This document shows positions 1,231-21,822 of a stretch of DNA of 32,188 nt, in pieces. The notes below the pieces were generated by a model. It ran no database searches and was not told where the DNA came from. It was given only the letters and a program-made list of their open reading frames with translations. Each line of letters begins with the position of its first letter. Position 1 is the stretch's first letter. A program made the translations under genes and the position numbers. This DNA comes from a bacterium (GTDB lineage Bacteria; RBG-13-66-14; B26-G2; WVWN01), in NCBI GenBank assembly GCA_035529855.1, contig DATKVX010000033.1:1-32188 (forward strand), in the 5' to 3' direction.

Positions 1231-1587
1231 ATGAAAAGGTGGGGTTTTATAATTGCGGCCTTGGTAGCGTGCGGGACAGGGGCGCTCGCGCTAACCGAAA
1301 TCAAAATACAGAATTTCGCCTTCGTACCCCAAAACGTGGTAGTCCCCAAGGGTGAAATGGTCCAGTGGACCAACCTCGACTCGGCGGTCCACACGTCGAC
1401 TTCCGACACGCTCGTCTGGGACTCCGGCGACATCCAACTGAACGAGTCCTACAAGCGGAAATTCAACAAGACCGGTTTCTTCCCCTACCATTGCAAATAC
1501 CATACGCTGATGAAGGGTACGGTGCGCGTCACGGAGACGGCCGTAGCGCCGACTTCTTTCGGCCGCGTCAGGGCGCTGTTCCGCTAA
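1231..1587 (+). CDS. Secreted plastocyanin-like blue copper protein
   Basis: A 118-residue exported cupredoxin, probably a small periplasmic or surface electron carrier. A Sec signal peptide covers about residues 1-20. All four type-1 copper ligands are visible in the right order: His54 (in AVHT), then Cys88, His91 and Met94 in PYHCKYHTLM. The copper domain ends near residue 102 and is followed by a short tail, VAPTSFGRVRALFR, which is not part of the fold. The next gene ends in nearly the same tail. It has its own promoter, a strong AAAGGAGGT ribosome site and its own terminator, so it is a single-gene unit. The redox partner is unknown. Confidence 0.9.
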   Translation: MKRWGFIIAALVACGTGALALTEIKIQNFAFVPQNVVVPKGEMVQWTNLDSAVHTSTSDTLVWDSGDIQLNESYKRKFNKTGFFPYHCKYHTLMKGTVRVTETAVAPTSFGRVRALFR

Positions 1588-1611
1588 AGGAAACTACCGG
1601 AACCGGAGAAT

Positions 1612-1639
1612 AAAGCCGCCCCTTGGGGCGGCTTTAACT
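1612..1639 (+). terminator. Intrinsic terminator
   Basis: Perfect 11-bp arms AAAGCCGCCCC / GGGGCGGCTTT (1612-1622 and 1625-1635) close around TT, then a short T-rich tail. The same 24-nt hairpin recurs at 2497-2520 after the next gene. Confidence 0.8.
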
Positions 1640-1693
1640 TTCGACGTGCTTTATCCCTCGCCGCGGAAAGACGGTGAGACATGAGGAATTCTT

Positions 1694-1722
1694 TTGCAAT
1701 TTTCCGATACTTCTGTTATATA
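1694..1722 (+). promoter_or_regulatory. Promoter of the secreted propeller gene
   Basis: TTGCAA (1694-1699), 17-nt spacer, TATATA (1717-1722), 28 nt upstream of the start codon, with AAGGAGG before the ATG. Confidence 0.5.
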
Positions 1723-1750
1723 GTAAAAGAGTCGAAAAAGGAGGATACAC

Positions 1751-2473
1751 ATGAGAACAGCAGTTTTAATTATCGCGTCGTCGTTGGCCGCGGCGACGGC
1801 GTGGGGCGCATTCGGTGACGTATTAGCATCGTTCCCCGGCCCGGGCACCACCCCGCTGGCGCTGGCGTGGGACGGCCAGTACCTCTGGTGCACTACCCAA
1901 ACGCCGGACTACACCTTCCGGATTAACCCCAATAACGGAAGCGTCATATCGTCCTACACGACGGGCTTCGGTTACGCCGCGCGCGGTTTGACGTGGGCCA
2001 ATTCGAGTATTTACGACGGAAACGACACCCCGAATTACGTAAACCGACGTAATACTTCAGGTAGTATCATGAGTTCATTCGCCGTTACTGCTCTTTACGG
2101 CGGCCTCACCTACGACGCGACCAATCTCTGGGTTACGTCGACGTCCCCTCACATGTTCTGGCGCGTTACGACCACCGGCTCGCTCGTCAGCTCTTTCACG
2201 GCCGCTTTCTACCCGTTCGACCCCGGCTGGGACGGGACTTATCTATACTGCGGCACGTACAGCCCGGCCCACCGGATATACAGGCTTACGACTACCGGTT
2301 CGGTCGTGACATCCGTGGCGCCCCCGGCCAACTTCCCGTGGGGTTGCTGCTCCGACGGCAAATACCTGTGGATATCCACCACGTCAGGTACCAACCGGGT
2401 CTGGAAGTTGGATTTGGGGAATACCGGCGTCGCACCCGCGTCGCTGGGCAGGGTTAAGGCCGTCTTCCGTTAA
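1751..2473 (+). CDS. Secreted beta-propeller-like protein with C-terminal tail signal
   Basis: A 240-residue exported protein. Residues 1-19 form a Sec signal peptide. The body is built from repeats of about 40 residues with the pattern 'W/Y-D-G-x-Y-L-W ... R-hydrophobic ... T-T-G-S-hydrophobic-V-S-S' (for example WDGQYLWC, YDATNLWVT, WDGTYLYCG, SDGKYLWIS), as in NHL/SMP-30-like propellers. About five blades are visible, so the fold may be incomplete or may need partners. The C-terminus VAPASLGRVKAVFR matches the tail of the cupredoxin just upstream. It has its own promoter, ribosome site (AAGGAGG) and terminator. Ligand and role are unknown; it may be a surface or extracellular binding protein. 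Confidence 0.85.
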   Translation: MRTAVLIIASSLAAATAWGAFGDVLASFPGPGTTPLALAWDGQYLWCTTQTPDYTFRINPNNGSVISSYTTGFGYAARGLTWANSSIYDGNDTPNYVNRRNTSGSIMSSFAVTALYGGLTYDATNLWVTSTSPHMFWRVTTTGSLVSSFTAAFYPFDPGWDGTYLYCGTYSPAHRIYRLTTTGSVVTSVAPPANFPWGCCSDGKYLWISTTSGTNRVWKLDLGNTGVAPASLGRVKAVFR

Positions 2474-2496: not shown

Positions 2497-2523
2497 AAAG
2501 CCGCCCCTTGGGGCGGCTTTATT
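2497..2523 (+). terminator. Intrinsic terminator, copy of the one at 1612
   Basis: AAAGCCGCCCC TT GGGGCGGCTTT (2497-2520) followed by ATT. It is base-for-base the same hairpin as 1612-1635. Confidence 0.8.
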
Positions 2524-8624: not shown

Positions 8625-9284
8625 CTAGTCCTCGACGGTCGTCGGCGTTTCCCCTTCGCCGCCCACCGTGAGTACGCGGACGCGTTGGATGGCGTCGCCC
8701 TGCTCGACGGCGTCGACGTCGTCCATACCGGTCACGACGACGCCGAAGACGCAGAAGTCCGGGTCCAGCCGGGGCGTATCCGATTTCAGAATGAAGAACT
8801 GCGTCGGGCTGGTGTCGCCGTAAACCACGTCACCCGTATCCTCGTCCCGCCGCGCGAGCCGGGCCATGGAGACGGCGCCGCGCACGCATTTACGTACGTC
8901 GGGTTCGGTCTCGAGGGATATATCCGGGTTCTCCCGGCCCACCAGCGTCGCGTCGCCGGCCTGGACGACGAAGTCCGGGACGACGCGGTGGAAGATGATG
9001 CCGTCGTAAAAGCCGTCCTCGACGAGCGCGACGAAGTTGCCGGCCGTCTTGGGCGTTTCGTCCGCCAGAAGCCGGACCTCGACGACGCCGCCATCGGCTA
9101 GCTCCATCACGGCGATTTCGGTGCCGGCCGGAAGCTCCCGGGCGGCCGCGGAGAGCTCGAGCGGCATCTCTTCCTCCTCGACCGGAAAGGCCACGGTATT
9201 GTCCCCGAACACTTCGACCGCGGCGAGCGCCAGGGCCGGCACGAGCACGGCGGCCGCTGCGGCGAGATAATAACGAAACCTCAT
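8625..9284 (-). CDS. Exported cyclophilin-type peptidyl-prolyl isomerase
   Basis: A 219-residue periplasmic PPIase of the cyclophilin family. An N-terminal signal/anchor hydrophobic stretch (about 1-22) is followed by an acidic linker. The cyclophilin fold shows ETPKTAGNFVALVEDGFYDG, FHRVVPDFVVQAGD (with the catalytic Arg), RGAVSMAR, SPTQFFI and FGVVVTGMDDVDAV. The start is ATG 9284, with AAGGAG eight bases upstream; a GTG further upstream lies in the ribosome site. It is a tandem paralogue of the gene at 9416. This copy has no lipobox and may stay soluble or membrane-tethered. Confidence 0.9.
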   Translation of the reverse strand: MRFRYYLAAAAAVLVPALALAAVEVFGDNTVAFPVEEEEMPLELSAAARELPAGTEIAVMELADGGVVEVRLLADETPKTAGNFVALVEDGFYDGIIFHRVVPDFVVQAGDATLVGRENPDISLETEPDVRKCVRGAVSMARLARRDEDTGDVVYGDTSPTQFFILKSDTPRLDPDFCVFGVVVTGMDDVDAVEQGDAIQRVRVLTVGGEGETPTTVED

Positions 9285-9371
9285 AATCAACACTCCTTAA
9301 CGTCTTCGAAGCGACGTTTGACCCAATAATATAATTTAAAGAGGGGCGCGCCGTCTACGGTCAGGGTTTTT

Positions 9372-9393
9372 AAACCCGCCTCGCGGCGGGTTC
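9372..9393 (-). terminator. Hairpin between the two cyclophilin genes
   Basis: AACCCGCC TCGC GGCGGGTT (9373-9392) lies just after the stop codon of the upstream cyclophilin. The T-run on the minus strand is only about three bases, so termination may be partial and some read-through into the second cyclophilin is likely. Confidence 0.4.
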
Positions 9394-9415
9394 GGCGCCG
9401 GGCCGAAACGGCTTA

Positions 9416-10090
9416 TTATTCCGTCTCCGCTGCGGCCTCGGCGGTCGCCGGCTTCGCCTCGCCGACTCTCAACACCCGTATGCGCTTGACTACGTCGTCC
9501 TTCCGGGTGTTATCGACGACGTCCATTCCGGTAACTACTAAGCCGAAGACGCAGAAGTCGGGGTCGAGGTGGGGCGAGTCGCCGGTGAGGATGAAGAACT
9601 GCGTCGGGCTGGTGGCGCCGTACTCCGTCGCGCCGGGGGCCATCGAGCGGGCCATAGACACGGCGCCGCGGACCGTCTTGCGCTTATCGGGCTCGGCCGG
9701 AATCTCGATCGCCGGGTTCTCGCGCCCCACGAGCGTCGCGTCGCCCGCCTGCGCCACGAAACCGGGTTCGACACGGTGGAAGGGAATGCCGTCGTAGAAC
9801 CAGTCTTCGACCAGCTTGATGAAGTTGCCCGCCGTCTTGGGCGTCTCCTTGGTCAGGAGCTCGATCTCGACTATGCCTTCCTCGGTCTCGATTACGGCGA
9901 CCTCGGTCCCGGGCGGGAGCTTCTGCGCGTCCGCGGACAACGTGAGGGGCGTTTCCGGCGTTTCGGCCGTGGCGGCGGTCTCGACGGTCTCGGCCGTCGC
10001 CGGCTCCTCGACCTTTTTTTGGCATCCCGCGTAAGCCAGCGCCAGCGCCATAACGACCGCGGCTAAGACAACATAGTTAAAACGCTTCAT
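9416..10090 (-). CDS. Cyclophilin-type PPIase lipoprotein
   Basis: A 224-residue lipid-anchored periplasmic prolyl isomerase. The signal peptide ends in the lipobox LAYAGC (Cys23). A Thr/Glu/Ala-rich linker of about 25 residues follows, then the cyclophilin domain with ETPKTAGNFIKLVEDWFYDG, FHRVEPGFVAQAGD, RGAVSMAR, SPTQFFI and FGLVVTGMDVVD. It is a close paralogue of the downstream gene, including the flanking 'ATLVGREN' loop. It has a strong AGGAGG ribosome site and a promoter at 10137-10165. The two genes are probably a duplicated pair with different anchoring. Confidence 0.92.
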   Translation of the reverse strand: MKRFNYVVLAAVVMALALAYAGCQKKVEEPATAETVETAATAETPETPLTLSADAQKLPPGTEVAVIETEEGIVEIELLTKETPKTAGNFIKLVEDWFYDGIPFHRVEPGFVAQAGDATLVGRENPAIEIPAEPDKRKTVRGAVSMARSMAPGATEYGATSPTQFFILTGDSPHLDPDFCVFGLVVTGMDVVDNTRKDDVVKRIRVLRVGEAKPATAEAAAETE

Positions 10091-13229: not shown

Positions 13230-13258
13230 TTGACATACATCGTTTGATAACTTACAAT
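13230..13258 (+). promoter_or_regulatory. Near-consensus promoter of the phosphodiesterase operon
   Basis: TTGACA (13230-13235), 17-nt spacer, TACAAT (13253-13258). It is the best promoter in the window. It puts the transcript start near 13265 and rules out the upstream TTG start at 13244 for the next gene. Confidence 0.8.
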
Positions 13259-13297
13259 TATTGTTTGGGGACGCCGAAACCGCGGACCTTTTCCGCT

Positions 13298-14581
13298 ATG
13301 GGTTTATTCAGCAAAAACAATAAACGCGCCGTCGTCGTGGGCCTGGACGGCGTGCCGCATTCGCTGGTAGAAAAGCTCACGGCCGACGGCGTAACGCCGC
13401 ACCTGGCCGAGCTCGGCGTAGCGAGCCCGTTCGCGCGGATGACGGTAACGCTGCCGGAAATTTCGGCCGTGTCGTGGCCCTCCTTCGCCACCGGCCTGAA
13501 CCCGGGAGGCCACGGCGTCTTTGGCTTCACCGAGCTCAAGGCCGGCACGTACGACGTCCGCTTCACGAACTCGGCCGACGTCAAGGCGCCGACTATTTGG
13601 GACCGACTGGGCCGCATCCGCAAGCGCGCCGTCGTGGTTAACCAACCGTCGACGTACCCCGCGAACGCCATCAACGGCGCCCTCGTGGCCGGGTTCGTGG
13701 CGGTGGACTTCGACCGCGCCATAATGCCGCCGCCGCTCCGGGCGAAGCTCCGCGCGCTGGGCTACGAAATCGACGTCGACACCGTGAAGTGCCGCGAAGA
13801 CCACGACCTCCTGCAGAAGCAGCTGATGACGACGCTCGCCGGCCGCCGCAAGGCCGCGGCGTACCTCTGGGAAAACGAGGACTGGGACTACTTCGAAGTG
13901 GTCGTCACCGGGACCGACCGCCTGCAACATTACCTGTGGGACGCGCTGATGGAGGAGGCCCACCCGCGCCACGGCTTCTGCCTCGAGTTCTACCGCGAGG
14001 TGGACCGCTTCGTCGGCGAGATGTTCGCCCGCGCCCGCGACGCGGGAGCGGCGTTCTACCTGCTGTCCGACCACGGCTTCTGCGGCGTCGAGCGCGAGGT
14101 GTACCTTAACACCTGGCTCGAGCAAGAGGGCTTTCTCGCCTTCGACGGCGGCAAGAACGACTCCCTGGCCGCTTTGGCCGCGGGGAGCCGCGCCTTCGCC
14201 CTCGACCCCAACCGCATCTACGTCAACGTCGCCGGCAAGTACCCCCGCGGCGGCGTGCGCCCCGGCGACGTCCCCGCCGTGCTGGCCGAGATAAAAGAGG
14301 GCCTGCTGGCGCTGAGCCACAACGGCCGCCCCGTAATAAGAAAAATATTCCACCGCGACGAGATTTACGACGGCCCGTACGCGGCGAGCGGCCCCGATAT
14401 GGTCGCGGTGGCGCATCCGGGCTTTGACCTGAAGGCGCACCTCGGCAAGGCCGAGGTCTTCGCCGAGACCAATCTGACCGGGATGCACACCTACGACGAC
14501 GCCGTCTTCTGGTCGGCCGAGCCGCCGCCCGCCGACGTAAAAATTACGGACCTGGCGAAGCTGGTATTGGCCAATTATTAA
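13298..14581 (+). CDS. Alkaline-phosphatase-superfamily phosphodiesterase, soluble form
   Basis: A 427-residue protein of the type I phosphodiesterase/nucleotide pyrophosphatase branch. Metal-site and nucleophile residues are in the usual order: Asp17 in VVVGLDGVP, a candidate Ser56 nucleophile in EISAVSWPSFATG, the TDRLQHYLW pair, SDHGF and a late GMHTYDD histidine. No signal peptide is visible, so it is probably cytoplasmic, unlike the next two genes. I start at ATG 13298 because the earlier TTG lies inside the promoter; no clear ribosome site is present, so initiation may be leaderless-like or weak. First gene of a five-gene run. Substrate unknown; phosphodiesters of lipids or nucleotides are plausible. 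Confidence 0.88.
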   Translation: MGLFSKNNKRAVVVGLDGVPHSLVEKLTADGVTPHLAELGVASPFARMTVTLPEISAVSWPSFATGLNPGGHGVFGFTELKAGTYDVRFTNSADVKAPTIWDRLGRIRKRAVVVNQPSTYPANAINGALVAGFVAVDFDRAIMPPPLRAKLRALGYEIDVDTVKCREDHDLLQKQLMTTLAGRRKAAAYLWENEDWDYFEVVVTGTDRLQHYLWDALMEEAHPRHGFCLEFYREVDRFVGEMFARARDAGAAFYLLSDHGFCGVEREVYLNTWLEQEGFLAFDGGKNDSLAALAAGSRAFALDPNRIYVNVAGKYPRGGVRPGDVPAVLAEIKEGLLALSHNGRPVIRKIFHRDEIYDGPYAASGPDMVAVAHPGFDLKAHLGKAEVFAETNLTGMHTYDDAVFWSAEPPPADVKITDLAKLVLANY

Positions 14582-14591
14582 TACCCCCCGC

Positions 14592-16704
<2,113 letters not shown>

Positions 16705-16718
<14 letters not shown>

Positions 16719-18687
16719 TTTTATAAAGGCGACCGGGACCGGCGCCGCGGTCGCCGCGGCGGGGGGCCTCGCGCCGCTGCTCGAGGCTTGCACCGGCAAG
16801 GCCAGGCCGATAGGCCGCAAGGTCATCGTCCTCGCCATCGACGGTATGGACCCGAAGCTGGTGCGGCGCTTCGTCGCCCGGGGCGGGATGCCCACCTTCG
16901 CGAAGTTCATCGAGAACAATACCTTTATGCCTTTGGGAACGAGCCTTCCGCCGCAGAGCCCGGTGGCGTGGTCCGACTTCATTACCGGCGCGGGCCCGGG
17001 CGTCCACGGCATCTTCGACTTTATACACCGCGACCCGCACACCCTCTACCCCTTCCTCTCCATTTCGCGGGCGATTCCCCCCTCCCGAACGATAAAGCTC
17101 GGCCGGCTGGTAATACCGCTCTCGGGCGGCAAGGTCGAAAACCTGCGCCGCGGCCCCTGCCTTTGGGAAATCCTCGCCCGCCACGACGTCCCGGCGACGG
17201 TCTTCAAATGCCCGTCGAACTTCCCGCCGGTGAAGACGGACGCCCGGACGGTATCGGGCCTGGGGACGCCGGACCTCCGCGGCACGTACGGCACTTTCTC
17301 CTACTACACCGACGACCCTCCCGCCGACGCCGACGAGTTCACGGGCGGCGAGTGCTACCCGGTCCGGCTGTGGGACAACACCTTCACCGCGGAGCTGGTC
17401 GGGCCGCCCAATACCTTCCGCGAGGGCTCGCCCCCGGCGAAGCTCCGCTTCACGGTCCACCGCGACCCGTCGCGCGACGTCGCGAAGGTGGCGTGGGACG
17501 GCGACGACGTAGTGCTCCAAAAGGGCGAGTGGAGCGGCTGGCGCCGGGTGCGCTTCAAACTCGCCGGGCCGCTGGCGGACGCCGTGGGTATGGTCCGACT
17601 TTACTTAAAAGAGGTTCGGCCGCATTTTAAGCTCTACGTCTCGCCGGTGAACGTCGACCCGCTCGAGCCGGCGCTGCCCATAAGCACGCCGGGCGACTAC
17701 GCGGCGCAGGTAGCGCGCCGCGCTGGCCGCTACTACACCCAGGGGTTCCCGGAAGAGACCAAAGCCCTGTCGCACGGCGTCTTCGAGGAGGAGGAATACC
17801 TGGCGCAGGCCGGGATCGTCCTGAACGAACGGTTCGCCTGCCTCGACGAAACGCTGGCCGACTTCGACGACGGCTTCTTCTACTTCTACATCTCGAGCAT
17901 CGACCAGAATACCCATATGATGTGGCGGACGATGGACCCCGAACATCCGCTGTATCAACCCGACGCGTCGCCCGAGGTCAAAGGCGCGGTGGAACACTTT
18001 TACCGCGAAATGGACGGCGCGCTGGCGCGCGTCCTCGCGAAGGTGGACGACAAGACGACGTTCTTCATCATCTCGGACCACGGCTTCGCGCCCTTCTACC
18101 GCGAGTTCAACCTCAACACCTGGCTGCTGGACAACGGCTACCTGGTGCTGGCGGACCCGACGCGACGCGCCGAGACCGAGTTCCTGGACAACATCGACTG
18201 GGCACGCACGGTGGCGTACGGCTTCGGCCTGAACGGCCTGTACGTCAACCTCCGCGGCCGCGAGCCGCACGGCATCGTCGAGCCCGGCGACGCCGACGGC
18301 CTCTCCCGCGAGCTAGCCGCCAAACTGGAGGCTTACAACGACGACGAGACCGGCGACCGCGTTATCGTCAAAGCGTACGTAAGTCGCGAGTCGTACCGGG
18401 GGCCGGCGGCGGCCTCGGCGCCGGAGCTCATCGTCGGCTTCGCGCCCGGGTACCGCCTGGCCGACGACTCCGCCGTAGCCGAATTCCCGGAACGGATATG
18501 CAAGGTGCGGGAGGACAAGTGGGCCGCGGACCACTGCGTCGACCCGGGGCACGTCCCCGGCGTGCTGTTCTGCAACAAACCGGTGGCCGCCAAAGCGCCC
18601 GCGCTCAAAGACCTCGCGCCCACGATATTGAAAGAGTTCGGCCTCGCGCCCGCGCCCGAAATGACCGGGCGGCACATACTCGGATAG
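16705..18687 (+). CDS. Alkaline-phosphatase-superfamily phosphodiesterase, Tat lipoprotein
   Basis: A 660-residue exported paralogue. Residues 1-29 form a twin-arginine signal (KRRDFIKATG) ending in a lipobox-like LLEAC (Cys29), so it is likely folded before export and lipid-anchored outside. Catalytic motifs are Asp46 in VLAIDGMDP, Ser85 in PPQSPVAWSDFITG, IDQNTHMMWR (a variant of the DRxQH motif), ISDHGFAPF and AADHCVD. It shares the cap-domain insert with the previous protein. The start ATG overlaps the previous gene by 14 nt, indicating translational coupling. With the two preceding genes it covers cytoplasm, membrane and outer face with the same chemistry. Confidence 0.88.
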
Positions 18688-20910: not shown

Positions 20911-20943
20911 TAACCGGTCAATAGCTTGGAAAGGAGAGGAGAA

Positions 20944-21822
20944 ATGAACAGGTTAATAGCCGTAGGTTGCGCTCTTCTATTCCTTATCGGTTGCGCGGAT
21001 GAGACGCCCACCGAGCCGGCAGAGGAAAAACACCCCGTTTTCCTGGGAAAATGGCTTTGCGACGACCACCCTATGGGCGTCGCGGCCTCTCCCAAAGGCT
21101 TCGTTTACGTTATATATTGGTACCCCGGGCAGGGCGGCGGTTTGGCGTTTTTCAGCCCCACCGGCAACCGCCTGGGCGAATGGGTCGTAACGGGCGATTA
21201 CAGCGTCTATGGGGTAGACGTCGCTCCGAACGGGAACGTCTACGCCACAACCGATTATGAAATAAAGTACTATACGCCCACCGGCAGCCTTCTGGGCGAA
21301 TGGGGCTCGAGGGGGTCGGGCCCAGGCCAGTTCCGCTACGCCGAGAACGTAGCTGTTGCCCCCGGCGGAAACGTATACGTTTTAGACTCGGGTAACGGCC
21401 GCATCCAGTATTTTACCGCGGCCGGCAGTTACCTCGGCGAATGGGGCGGCGTGGCGGAGTGCAGCGGCCTCGCGGTCGCCCCCGACGGCAACGTGTACGT
21501 GACTGCTTCCTATGACGAATGCGTGAAATATTTTACGCCCACCGGGAGCCTGCTCGGCAGCTGGGGCTCCGAAGGAACGGGCGAGGGTCAGTTCAAGTGG
21601 ATTTGGGAAATCGCCGTGAATAAAAGCGGCCGCGTCTTCATCGCCGATAGACGGAACAACCGGATACAGTTCTTCACGTCCACGGGCGAATTCTTGGGGA
21701 AATGGGGCGCGAAAGGCGCTAACGACGGCCAATTCGAACAGCCCTACGGCCTCGCGGTCGCCCCGGACGGAGTAATCTACGTTACGGACGAAGGAACGGA
21801 CCGGGTACAATACTTCAAATAA
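20944..21822 (+). CDS. NHL-repeat beta-propeller lipoprotein
   Basis: A 292-residue lipid-anchored extracytoplasmic protein. The signal peptide ends in the lipobox FLIGC (about residue 18). The rest is a six-bladed NHL-type propeller. Each blade repeats 'V-A-x-x-G-x-V-Y-V ... D-x-G-x-x-R-I-Q-Y-F ... T-x-x-G-S-x-L-G-x-W-G', for example APGGNVYVLDSGNGRIQYF and GRVFIADRRNNRIQFF. The start is ATG 20944, right after AAAGGAGAGGAG; a TTG further upstream lies in that ribosome site. It is monocistronic. The ligand is unknown; such proteins often bind proteins or carbohydrates. Confidence 0.88.
   Translation: MNRLIAVGCALLFLIGCADETPTEPAEEKHPVFLGKWLCDDHPMGVAASPKGFVYVIYWYPGQGGGLAFFSPTGNRLGEWVVTGDYSVYGVDVAPNGNVYATTDYEIKYYTPTGSLLGEWGSRGSGPGQFRYAENVAVAPGGNVYVLDSGNGRIQYFTAAGSYLGEWGGVAECSGLAVAPDGNVYVTASYDECVKYFTPTGSLLGSWGSEGTGEGQFKWIWEIAVNKSGRVFIADRRNNRIQFFTSTGEFLGKWGAKGANDGQFEQPYGLAVAPDGVIYVTDEGTDRVQYFK

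Follow-up and report, generated by a model that had tools for sequence, protein, structure and literature searches.

A 32,188-nucleotide stretch of bacterial DNA (the window; contig DATKVX010000033.1 of assembly GCA_035529855.1) contains two genes for exported proteins of different type that end in almost the same short peptide, and this C-terminal tail is the subject of our analysis. The first gene, at 1231..1587 and on the forward strand like the second gene, the tails, the hairpins and the tail-less lipoprotein gene described below, encodes a plastocyanin/azurin-type cupredoxin, an identity already given in the first-pass annotation and borne out by Pfam (PF13473, 1.1e-07; PF00127, 7.5e-07). 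Its open reading frame (ORF) starts with an approximate signal peptide, MKRWGFIIAALVACGTGALA (1231..1290; from hydropathy and a ribosome-binding site, with the cleavage site placed by eye), and terminates in ...TETAVAPTSFGRVRALFR. The second gene, at 1751..2473, encodes a small propeller-like exported protein of 240 amino acids with an approximate signal peptide, MRTAVLIIASSLAAATAWGA (1751..1810; from hydropathy and a ribosome-binding site), and the terminus ...DLGNTGVAPASLGRVKAVFR. Simple hydropathy found a basic N-terminus followed by a hydrophobic core in both proteins, in agreement with the signal peptides assigned earlier. The earlier identification of the second protein as propeller-like stands only as a weak likeness, its matches to DUF6923/Vgb_lyase lying below the Pfam cut-off.

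From the ORFs and the tail pattern, we placed the two tails at 1543..1584 (VAPTSFGRVRALFR, cupredoxin) and 2429..2470 (VAPASLGRVKAVFR, propeller-like protein). Ten of their 14 residues are identical, as expected from the near-identity noticed at first reading, and their consensus is VAPxS(F/L)GRV(R/K)A(L/V)FR. A degenerate DNA version of the pattern matched the window at the two tail sites only, with no match expected from 100 shuffles. Each gene is followed on its 3′ side by the same terminator-like hairpin, AAGCCGCCCCTTGGGGCGGCTT, at 1613..1634 for the cupredoxin gene and as an exact copy at 2498..2519 for the propeller-like gene. This perfect hairpin was absent from the other loci fetched, the window region aside.

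A genome-wide tail family and its spread in the FCB superphylum

The tail pair in the window belongs to a far larger genome-wide set. The window is contig 33 of its own assembly (G000, 2.62 Mb), in which the tail pattern, with up to three mismatches allowed, occurs at 120 places, against 2 for a reversed control. The first-pass annotation had made its reading depend on further tail proteins in the genome, and at least 93 ORFs of G000, gathered from the stretches around pattern matches, terminate in the tail. Most of the complete ones have a signal-peptide-like N-terminus. The conserved block reads V-[AE]-P-[AT]-S-[LFV]-G-[RK]-[VI]-[KR]-A-[LIV]-[FY]-[RKE]; conservation ends sharply upstream of it, and the information content of these proteins lies mostly in the final 10–14 residues. 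The last residue is R, K or E in 84 of the 93 tails, and the net charge of the last ten residues is about +2.7.

The bodies that carry the tail are diverse. Searches of 70 tail proteins against NCBIfam and Pfam recovered NHL and other propellers, cupredoxin, Omp28-like and MAM-like domains, together with many bodies of unknown type, and no Pfam or NCBIfam model among the families listed (for NCBIfam, 25 of 40) spanned the tail. A PorE-family match among these proteins is probably due to propeller repeats. In some cases, paralogous tail genes stand side by side in tandem arrays. At another locus of the genome (L251, G000:C60, 2236–2994), a variant tail, SVSPASFGKIKALQR, has Q in place of the aromatic residue and lies between two proteins with the canonical C-terminal domain (CTD) of type IX secretion.

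At the DNA level, the 93 tails comprise 91 distinct 42-nt sequences with mixed synonymous codons, including all four glycine codons. This diversity indicates selection on the protein rather than on the DNA and rules out a DNA-level repeat or duplication artefact. None of the 93 proteins contains a 19-residue stretch with a hydropathy of 1.6 or more within its last 60 residues. Taken together, the codon diversity and the lack of a nearby hydrophobic segment show that what is constrained is the peptide itself, held at a fixed distance from the carboxyl terminus.

We next consider the organism and its relatives. The RuvB protein of G000 shares 81% identity with its counterpart in Candidatus Coatesbacteria bin961 (CP070633, G031), versus 62–64% for other members of its own class, from which we infer that the genome belongs to Candidatus Coatesbacteria. 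The phylum was represented by 14 genomes in the collection searched. Tails matching the strict pattern number 100–115 per genome in congeners, 6–14 in other genera of the class and 0–2 in the other class, where the strict pattern undercounts. Of the 14 genomes, 11 yielded homologues of the window cupredoxin, which retain the tail in a tryptophan form (for example VEETSWGKIRAMYR and VEPTSWGRILSLYR); in homologues at about 34% identity, such as the one ending in VEPTSWGRILSLYR, tryptophan takes the place of phenylalanine.

This tryptophan version of the tail, [ST]WGx[IV]KA[LM][FY][RK], is found in the FCB superphylum. A scan of 84,980 species with [ST]WGx[IV]KA[LM][FY]x identified at least 116 loci, most of them with tail-terminated ORFs and nearly all from FCB lineages: Ignavibacteria, KSB1, Calditrichota, Marinimicrobia, Zixibacteria, Delongbacteria, Eisenbacteria, Krumholzibacteria, Latescibacterota, Fermentibacteria and Coatesbacteria. 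Two loci from elsewhere look like chance matches, since the one in Pantoea has no tail-terminated ORF and the one in Syntrophobacterales has only a 58-amino-acid ORF. A tail protein was also seen in a metagenome-assembled genome labelled Reyranella (Alphaproteobacteria; L177); it is homologous to a protein from an FCB locus, and the contig is therefore probably a contaminant of that assembly. Within Bacteroidota, the tail was present, always as a single copy, in 50 of 198 genomes. Judged from these sequences, the tail is conserved across the FCB superphylum, which agrees with the earlier argument that convergence on so close a match is unlikely.

The lineages fall into two classes by the number of tails they carry. 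In class 2, comprising Eisenbacteria- and Krumholzibacteria-type lineages, each genome has about 6–34 tryptophan-form tails on diverse bodies. In class 1 (Ignavibacteria, KSB1, Calditrichota and Marinimicrobia), each genome has exactly one tail gene, whose product consists of a signal peptide, an FN3-like domain and a terminal TWGSIKA[ML]F[RKQ]. The FN3 bodies are 25–48% identical to one another, and the T, S and I of TWGSIKA are invariant even though the search pattern did not fix them. AlphaFold and Foldseek confirmed the FN3 fold, and a sequence search of the PDB with the class-1 alignment returned weak FN3/Ig matches only. The gene lies in a recurring neighbourhood of Maf, flippase, MATE, RuvB and SpoIID-type genes (e.g., L121, L135, L138 and L210), and in the loci examined it adjoins no sprA, porV or obvious type IX gene.

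Relation to type IX secretion and to lipid anchors

More than one class of signal serves type IX secretion, and each class has a carrier of its own (PMC12618676): PorV recognises type A CTDs, and SprF-like carriers recognise type B signals (PMC10994853, PMC12618676). We compared the tail with the CTD on homologous proteins. Beta-helix bodies carry a CTD at L196 and the tail at L145, L171 and L201, with E-values down to 9e-33. Similarly, the FN3 domains of two CTD proteins at L210 matched the class-1 proteins at 1e-13, and within G000 a CTD protein at L251 is homologous to a tail protein at L075 (3e-13). When the class-1 FN3 profile was built without the tail, it matched seven ORFs beyond the class-1 proteins themselves, and all seven have a CTD-like terminus. 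The sample of swap loci is partly biased, some loci having been fetched for their CTD. At the sequence level, computation shows the tail and the type IX CTD interchanging on homologous bodies.

The two ends were never combined: of 290 tail ORFs tested with a profile of the G000 CTDs (a set with some duplicates from overlapping loci), none carries both. TIGR04183 was not among the NCBIfam families listed (25 of 40) for the 70 tail proteins at E<=1, and neither was TIGR04131; the conserved block is only about 14 residues long. A disguised canonical CTD was rejected for lack of any CTD-profile match and of any ORF with both ends, and we do not assign the tail to the CTD families, as it lacks their defining domain. 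The first-pass annotation had likened the logic of the tail to that of type IX signals while noting a different sequence, and both halves of that comparison agree with these results.

A relation to lipid anchoring was also observed. The window holds a tail-less control at 20926..21822, an NHL-propeller lipoprotein (PF01436, 1.3e-25; lipobox LIGC) that ends in ...GTDRVQYFK and is 45% identical over 268 amino acids to tail-bearing NHL proteins. Including this protein, 6 of the 13 tail-less NHL-type homologues in G000 are clear lipoproteins. Among 75 tail proteins of G000 none has a clear lipobox, with four cysteines ambiguous, and a lipoprotein class was accordingly rejected as the identity of the tail family. 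Other genes were noted in the window by the way. A tandem pair of exported cyclophilin-type proteins without the tail lies at 8625–10090, one of them resembling a lipoprotein, and three successive genes for large proteins of the alkaline phosphatase superfamily (nucleotide pyrophosphatase-like), identified by reading translations only, form an apparent tandem family at 13244–18687.

We then examined whether tail genomes have the type IX translocon. SprA (TIGR04189) was found in all 36 tail genomes and in none of 14 controls. Within Bacteroidota, it was present in 38 of 38 tail-plus genomes versus 29 of 42 tail-minus genomes (Fisher p 1e-4, uncorrected for phylogeny), a distribution in which SprA looks necessary for the tail, not sufficient. 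Type A CTDs and the PorV family were detected in 20 of 20 tail genomes, with 29 type A CTD matches and 10 PorV-family genes in G000. The sprA gene of G000 is a fragment at a contig edge (L237, G000:C87); congeners have full-length genes of about 1950 amino acids, preceded at short distance by tail genes and directly followed by two MotA/ExbB and two ExbD genes. The latter arrangement (L237, L235 and L236) may represent an alternative motor for the type IX system. The GldM model TIGR03517 matched no genome searched, including Ignavibacteria with SprA, and is hence uninformative. A dedicated protease or transpeptidase, which the first-pass annotation had suggested looking for, was not identified; only a general PorU-type C25 peptidase of the type IX system was found, a Propeptide_C25 and Peptidase_C25 protein of G000 encoded next to a PorV gene (L257).

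These comparisons show by computation that the tail is real, widespread, under selection at the amino-acid level, strictly C-terminal, and accompanied by SprA in every genome tested. The type IX system probably serves it.

Possible function and comparison with known sorting signals

We lean towards reading the tail as a short linear C-terminal sorting signal whose most likely client machine is an SprA-type translocon with a PorV-family carrier. Tail proteins would cross the inner membrane by means of the N-terminal signal peptide. Their last ten or so residues, [ST]-[W/L/F/V]-G-x-[IV]-[KR]-[AS]-[LMI]-[FY]-[R/K/Q/E]-COOH, usually preceded by VxPx, would then be read by an envelope receptor that is the same for every tail protein and is conserved throughout the superphylum. 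By analogy with the pairing of type A CTDs with PorV and of type B signals with SprF-like carriers, this receptor would most likely be a carrier of the PorV type acting with the SprA translocon, and on small cargo the tail would stand in place of the type A beta-sandwich CTD of about 75 residues. A sorting role and recognition by SprA/PorV are what we infer for the tail, and its cargo may be surface-attached or released. The sorting or anchoring function proposed at first reading gains support from the genome- and superphylum-wide occurrence of the tail, its strictly C-terminal position, its exported bodies, its alternation with the CTD and its confinement to genomes with SprA. In broader terms, we judge it rather probable that ten residues with a free carboxyl end do here what otherwise takes a CTD of 75–100 residues, either as a third and minimal class of type IX signal or as a C-terminal sorting system of the FCB superphylum that is itself new. 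Such a tail would have originated on one conserved FN3 protein and spread to more than 100 cargoes in Coatesbacteria-like lineages.

Several observations weigh against a type IX signal of this kind. Known type IX signals are all much longer than this motif, many canonical CTD proteins are present in the same genomes (29 in G000), so that there is no evident need for another signal, and no dedicated receptor gene or processing enzyme for the tail was pinpointed. Since SprA is common in the superphylum, the co-occurrence is confounded by phylogeny. With a single tail protein per class-1 genome, a docking element of one component accounts for these genomes no less well than a general export signal does. 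The AlphaFold model of the class-1 protein places the tail in a C-terminal helix with only moderate confidence (123–134, pLDDT 69–78), and neither helical nor strand periodicity of the tail is significant, so that periodicity does not discriminate between the two. Outside G000, tail proteins at L117, L152 and L205 look like lipoproteins, so the tail and a lipid anchor are not strictly exclusive.

Some of these points would suit a tail that serves as a sorting or retention signal for another envelope receptor, such as a periplasmic or outer-membrane anchoring protein, with type IX secretion merely common in the same organisms. The coexistence of many CTD proteins and the near-universal presence of SprA in these phyla, which may make the linkage incidental, agree with such a receptor, as do the lipid-anchored homologues without the tail, as though tail and lipid were alternative anchors; the near-invariance of nearly every tail residue likewise suggests a specific protein partner. 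We nevertheless regard this receptor, one of the two main rivals to our reading, as a doubtful alternative, because homologous bodies bear either the tail or the CTD, all further matches of the class-1 FN3 profile are CTD-type proteins, every tail genome seen has SprA, and SprA-less Bacteroidota are without the tail. The single tail protein of class-1 genomes, with its almost invariant TWGSIKA[ML]F[RKQ], and its strict co-occurrence with SprA could also mean that the ancestral FN3 protein was an accessory component of type IX secretion that bound its partner through the tail. Lineages such as Coatesbacteria and Eisenbacteria would later have reused this tail to attach many exported proteins to that partner. 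Such an origin as a docking element, the other main rival, seems improbable given that the class-1 gene adjoins Maf, flippase, MATE, RuvB and SpoIID-type genes rather than sprA or porV, and that its FN3 domain is cargo-like.

The positive charge of the last ten residues and the helix predicted in the class-1 model would be consistent with an amphipathic basic helix that anchors the protein in the plane of the membrane by non-specific lipid binding. This is very unlikely, as the helical hydrophobic moment is no greater than that of position shuffles and lipid binding by a helix does not require that G, K and a small residue be invariant and keep set distances from the carboxyl end. We give almost no credence to a functionless by-product of recent duplication or of a mobile 3′ sequence: tandem paralogue arrays and the identical hairpins behind the two window genes would fit it, but 91 of 93 tails differ in DNA with diverse synonymous codons, and the tail is retained on cupredoxins at 34% identity and across phyla.

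Known C-terminal signals offer partial parallels to the proposed sorting signal. Like TIGR04183 (Por_Secre_tail), it combines an N-terminal signal peptide and a C-terminal signal on diverse bodies, is distributed over FCB lineages, and occurs on homologous cargo in the same genomes. Type A CTDs also have a conserved lysine near the C-terminus (PMC10994853), a feature shared by the tail. The CTD, however, is a seven-stranded beta-sandwich of about 70–100 residues, whereas the tail has about 10–14 residues and was never found together with a CTD. Type B signals (TIGR04131) differ in having about 100 residues with five motifs and are often genetically paired with a PorP/SprF carrier; we noted no carrier gene paired with the tail, PorP/SprF genes not having been searched for. 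In PEP-CTERM/GlyGly-CTERM-type systems, a short C-terminal homology block occurs on many unrelated exported proteins (PMC1569441, PMC3237569). PEP-CTERM/exosortase, GlyGly-CTERM/rhombosortase and LPXTG/sortase signals share this property with the tail but require a transmembrane segment between their motif and the basic end; with no transmembrane segment in the last 60 residues of the 93 proteins, a sortase-, exosortase- or rhombosortase-type signal was rejected. The BamA beta-signal resembles the tail in its extreme C-terminal position and an aromatic residue near the end, but the bodies here (cupredoxin, propeller and similar) are soluble rather than barrels, and the aromatic residue is penultimate, followed usually by Arg or Lys; a beta-signal was therefore rejected. 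In the papers searched, neither the motif strings nor a link between type IX secretion and Coatesbacteria was found.

To our knowledge, every known class of C-terminal sorting signal needs a transmembrane anchor or else depends on a folded domain of at least about 75 residues. If the proposed reading is true, a ten-residue tag on cupredoxins, propellers, beta-helices and other proteins across the superphylum would constitute a new address code. Because Melioribacter- and Ignavibacterium-type genomes have single tail genes, the proposal is testable in cultured bacteria. The tail could act as a compact secretion tag and would give a handle on cargo recognition by SprA/PorV or by an unknown receptor, and large sets of proteins from uncultured phyla that otherwise lack annotation would be marked by it.
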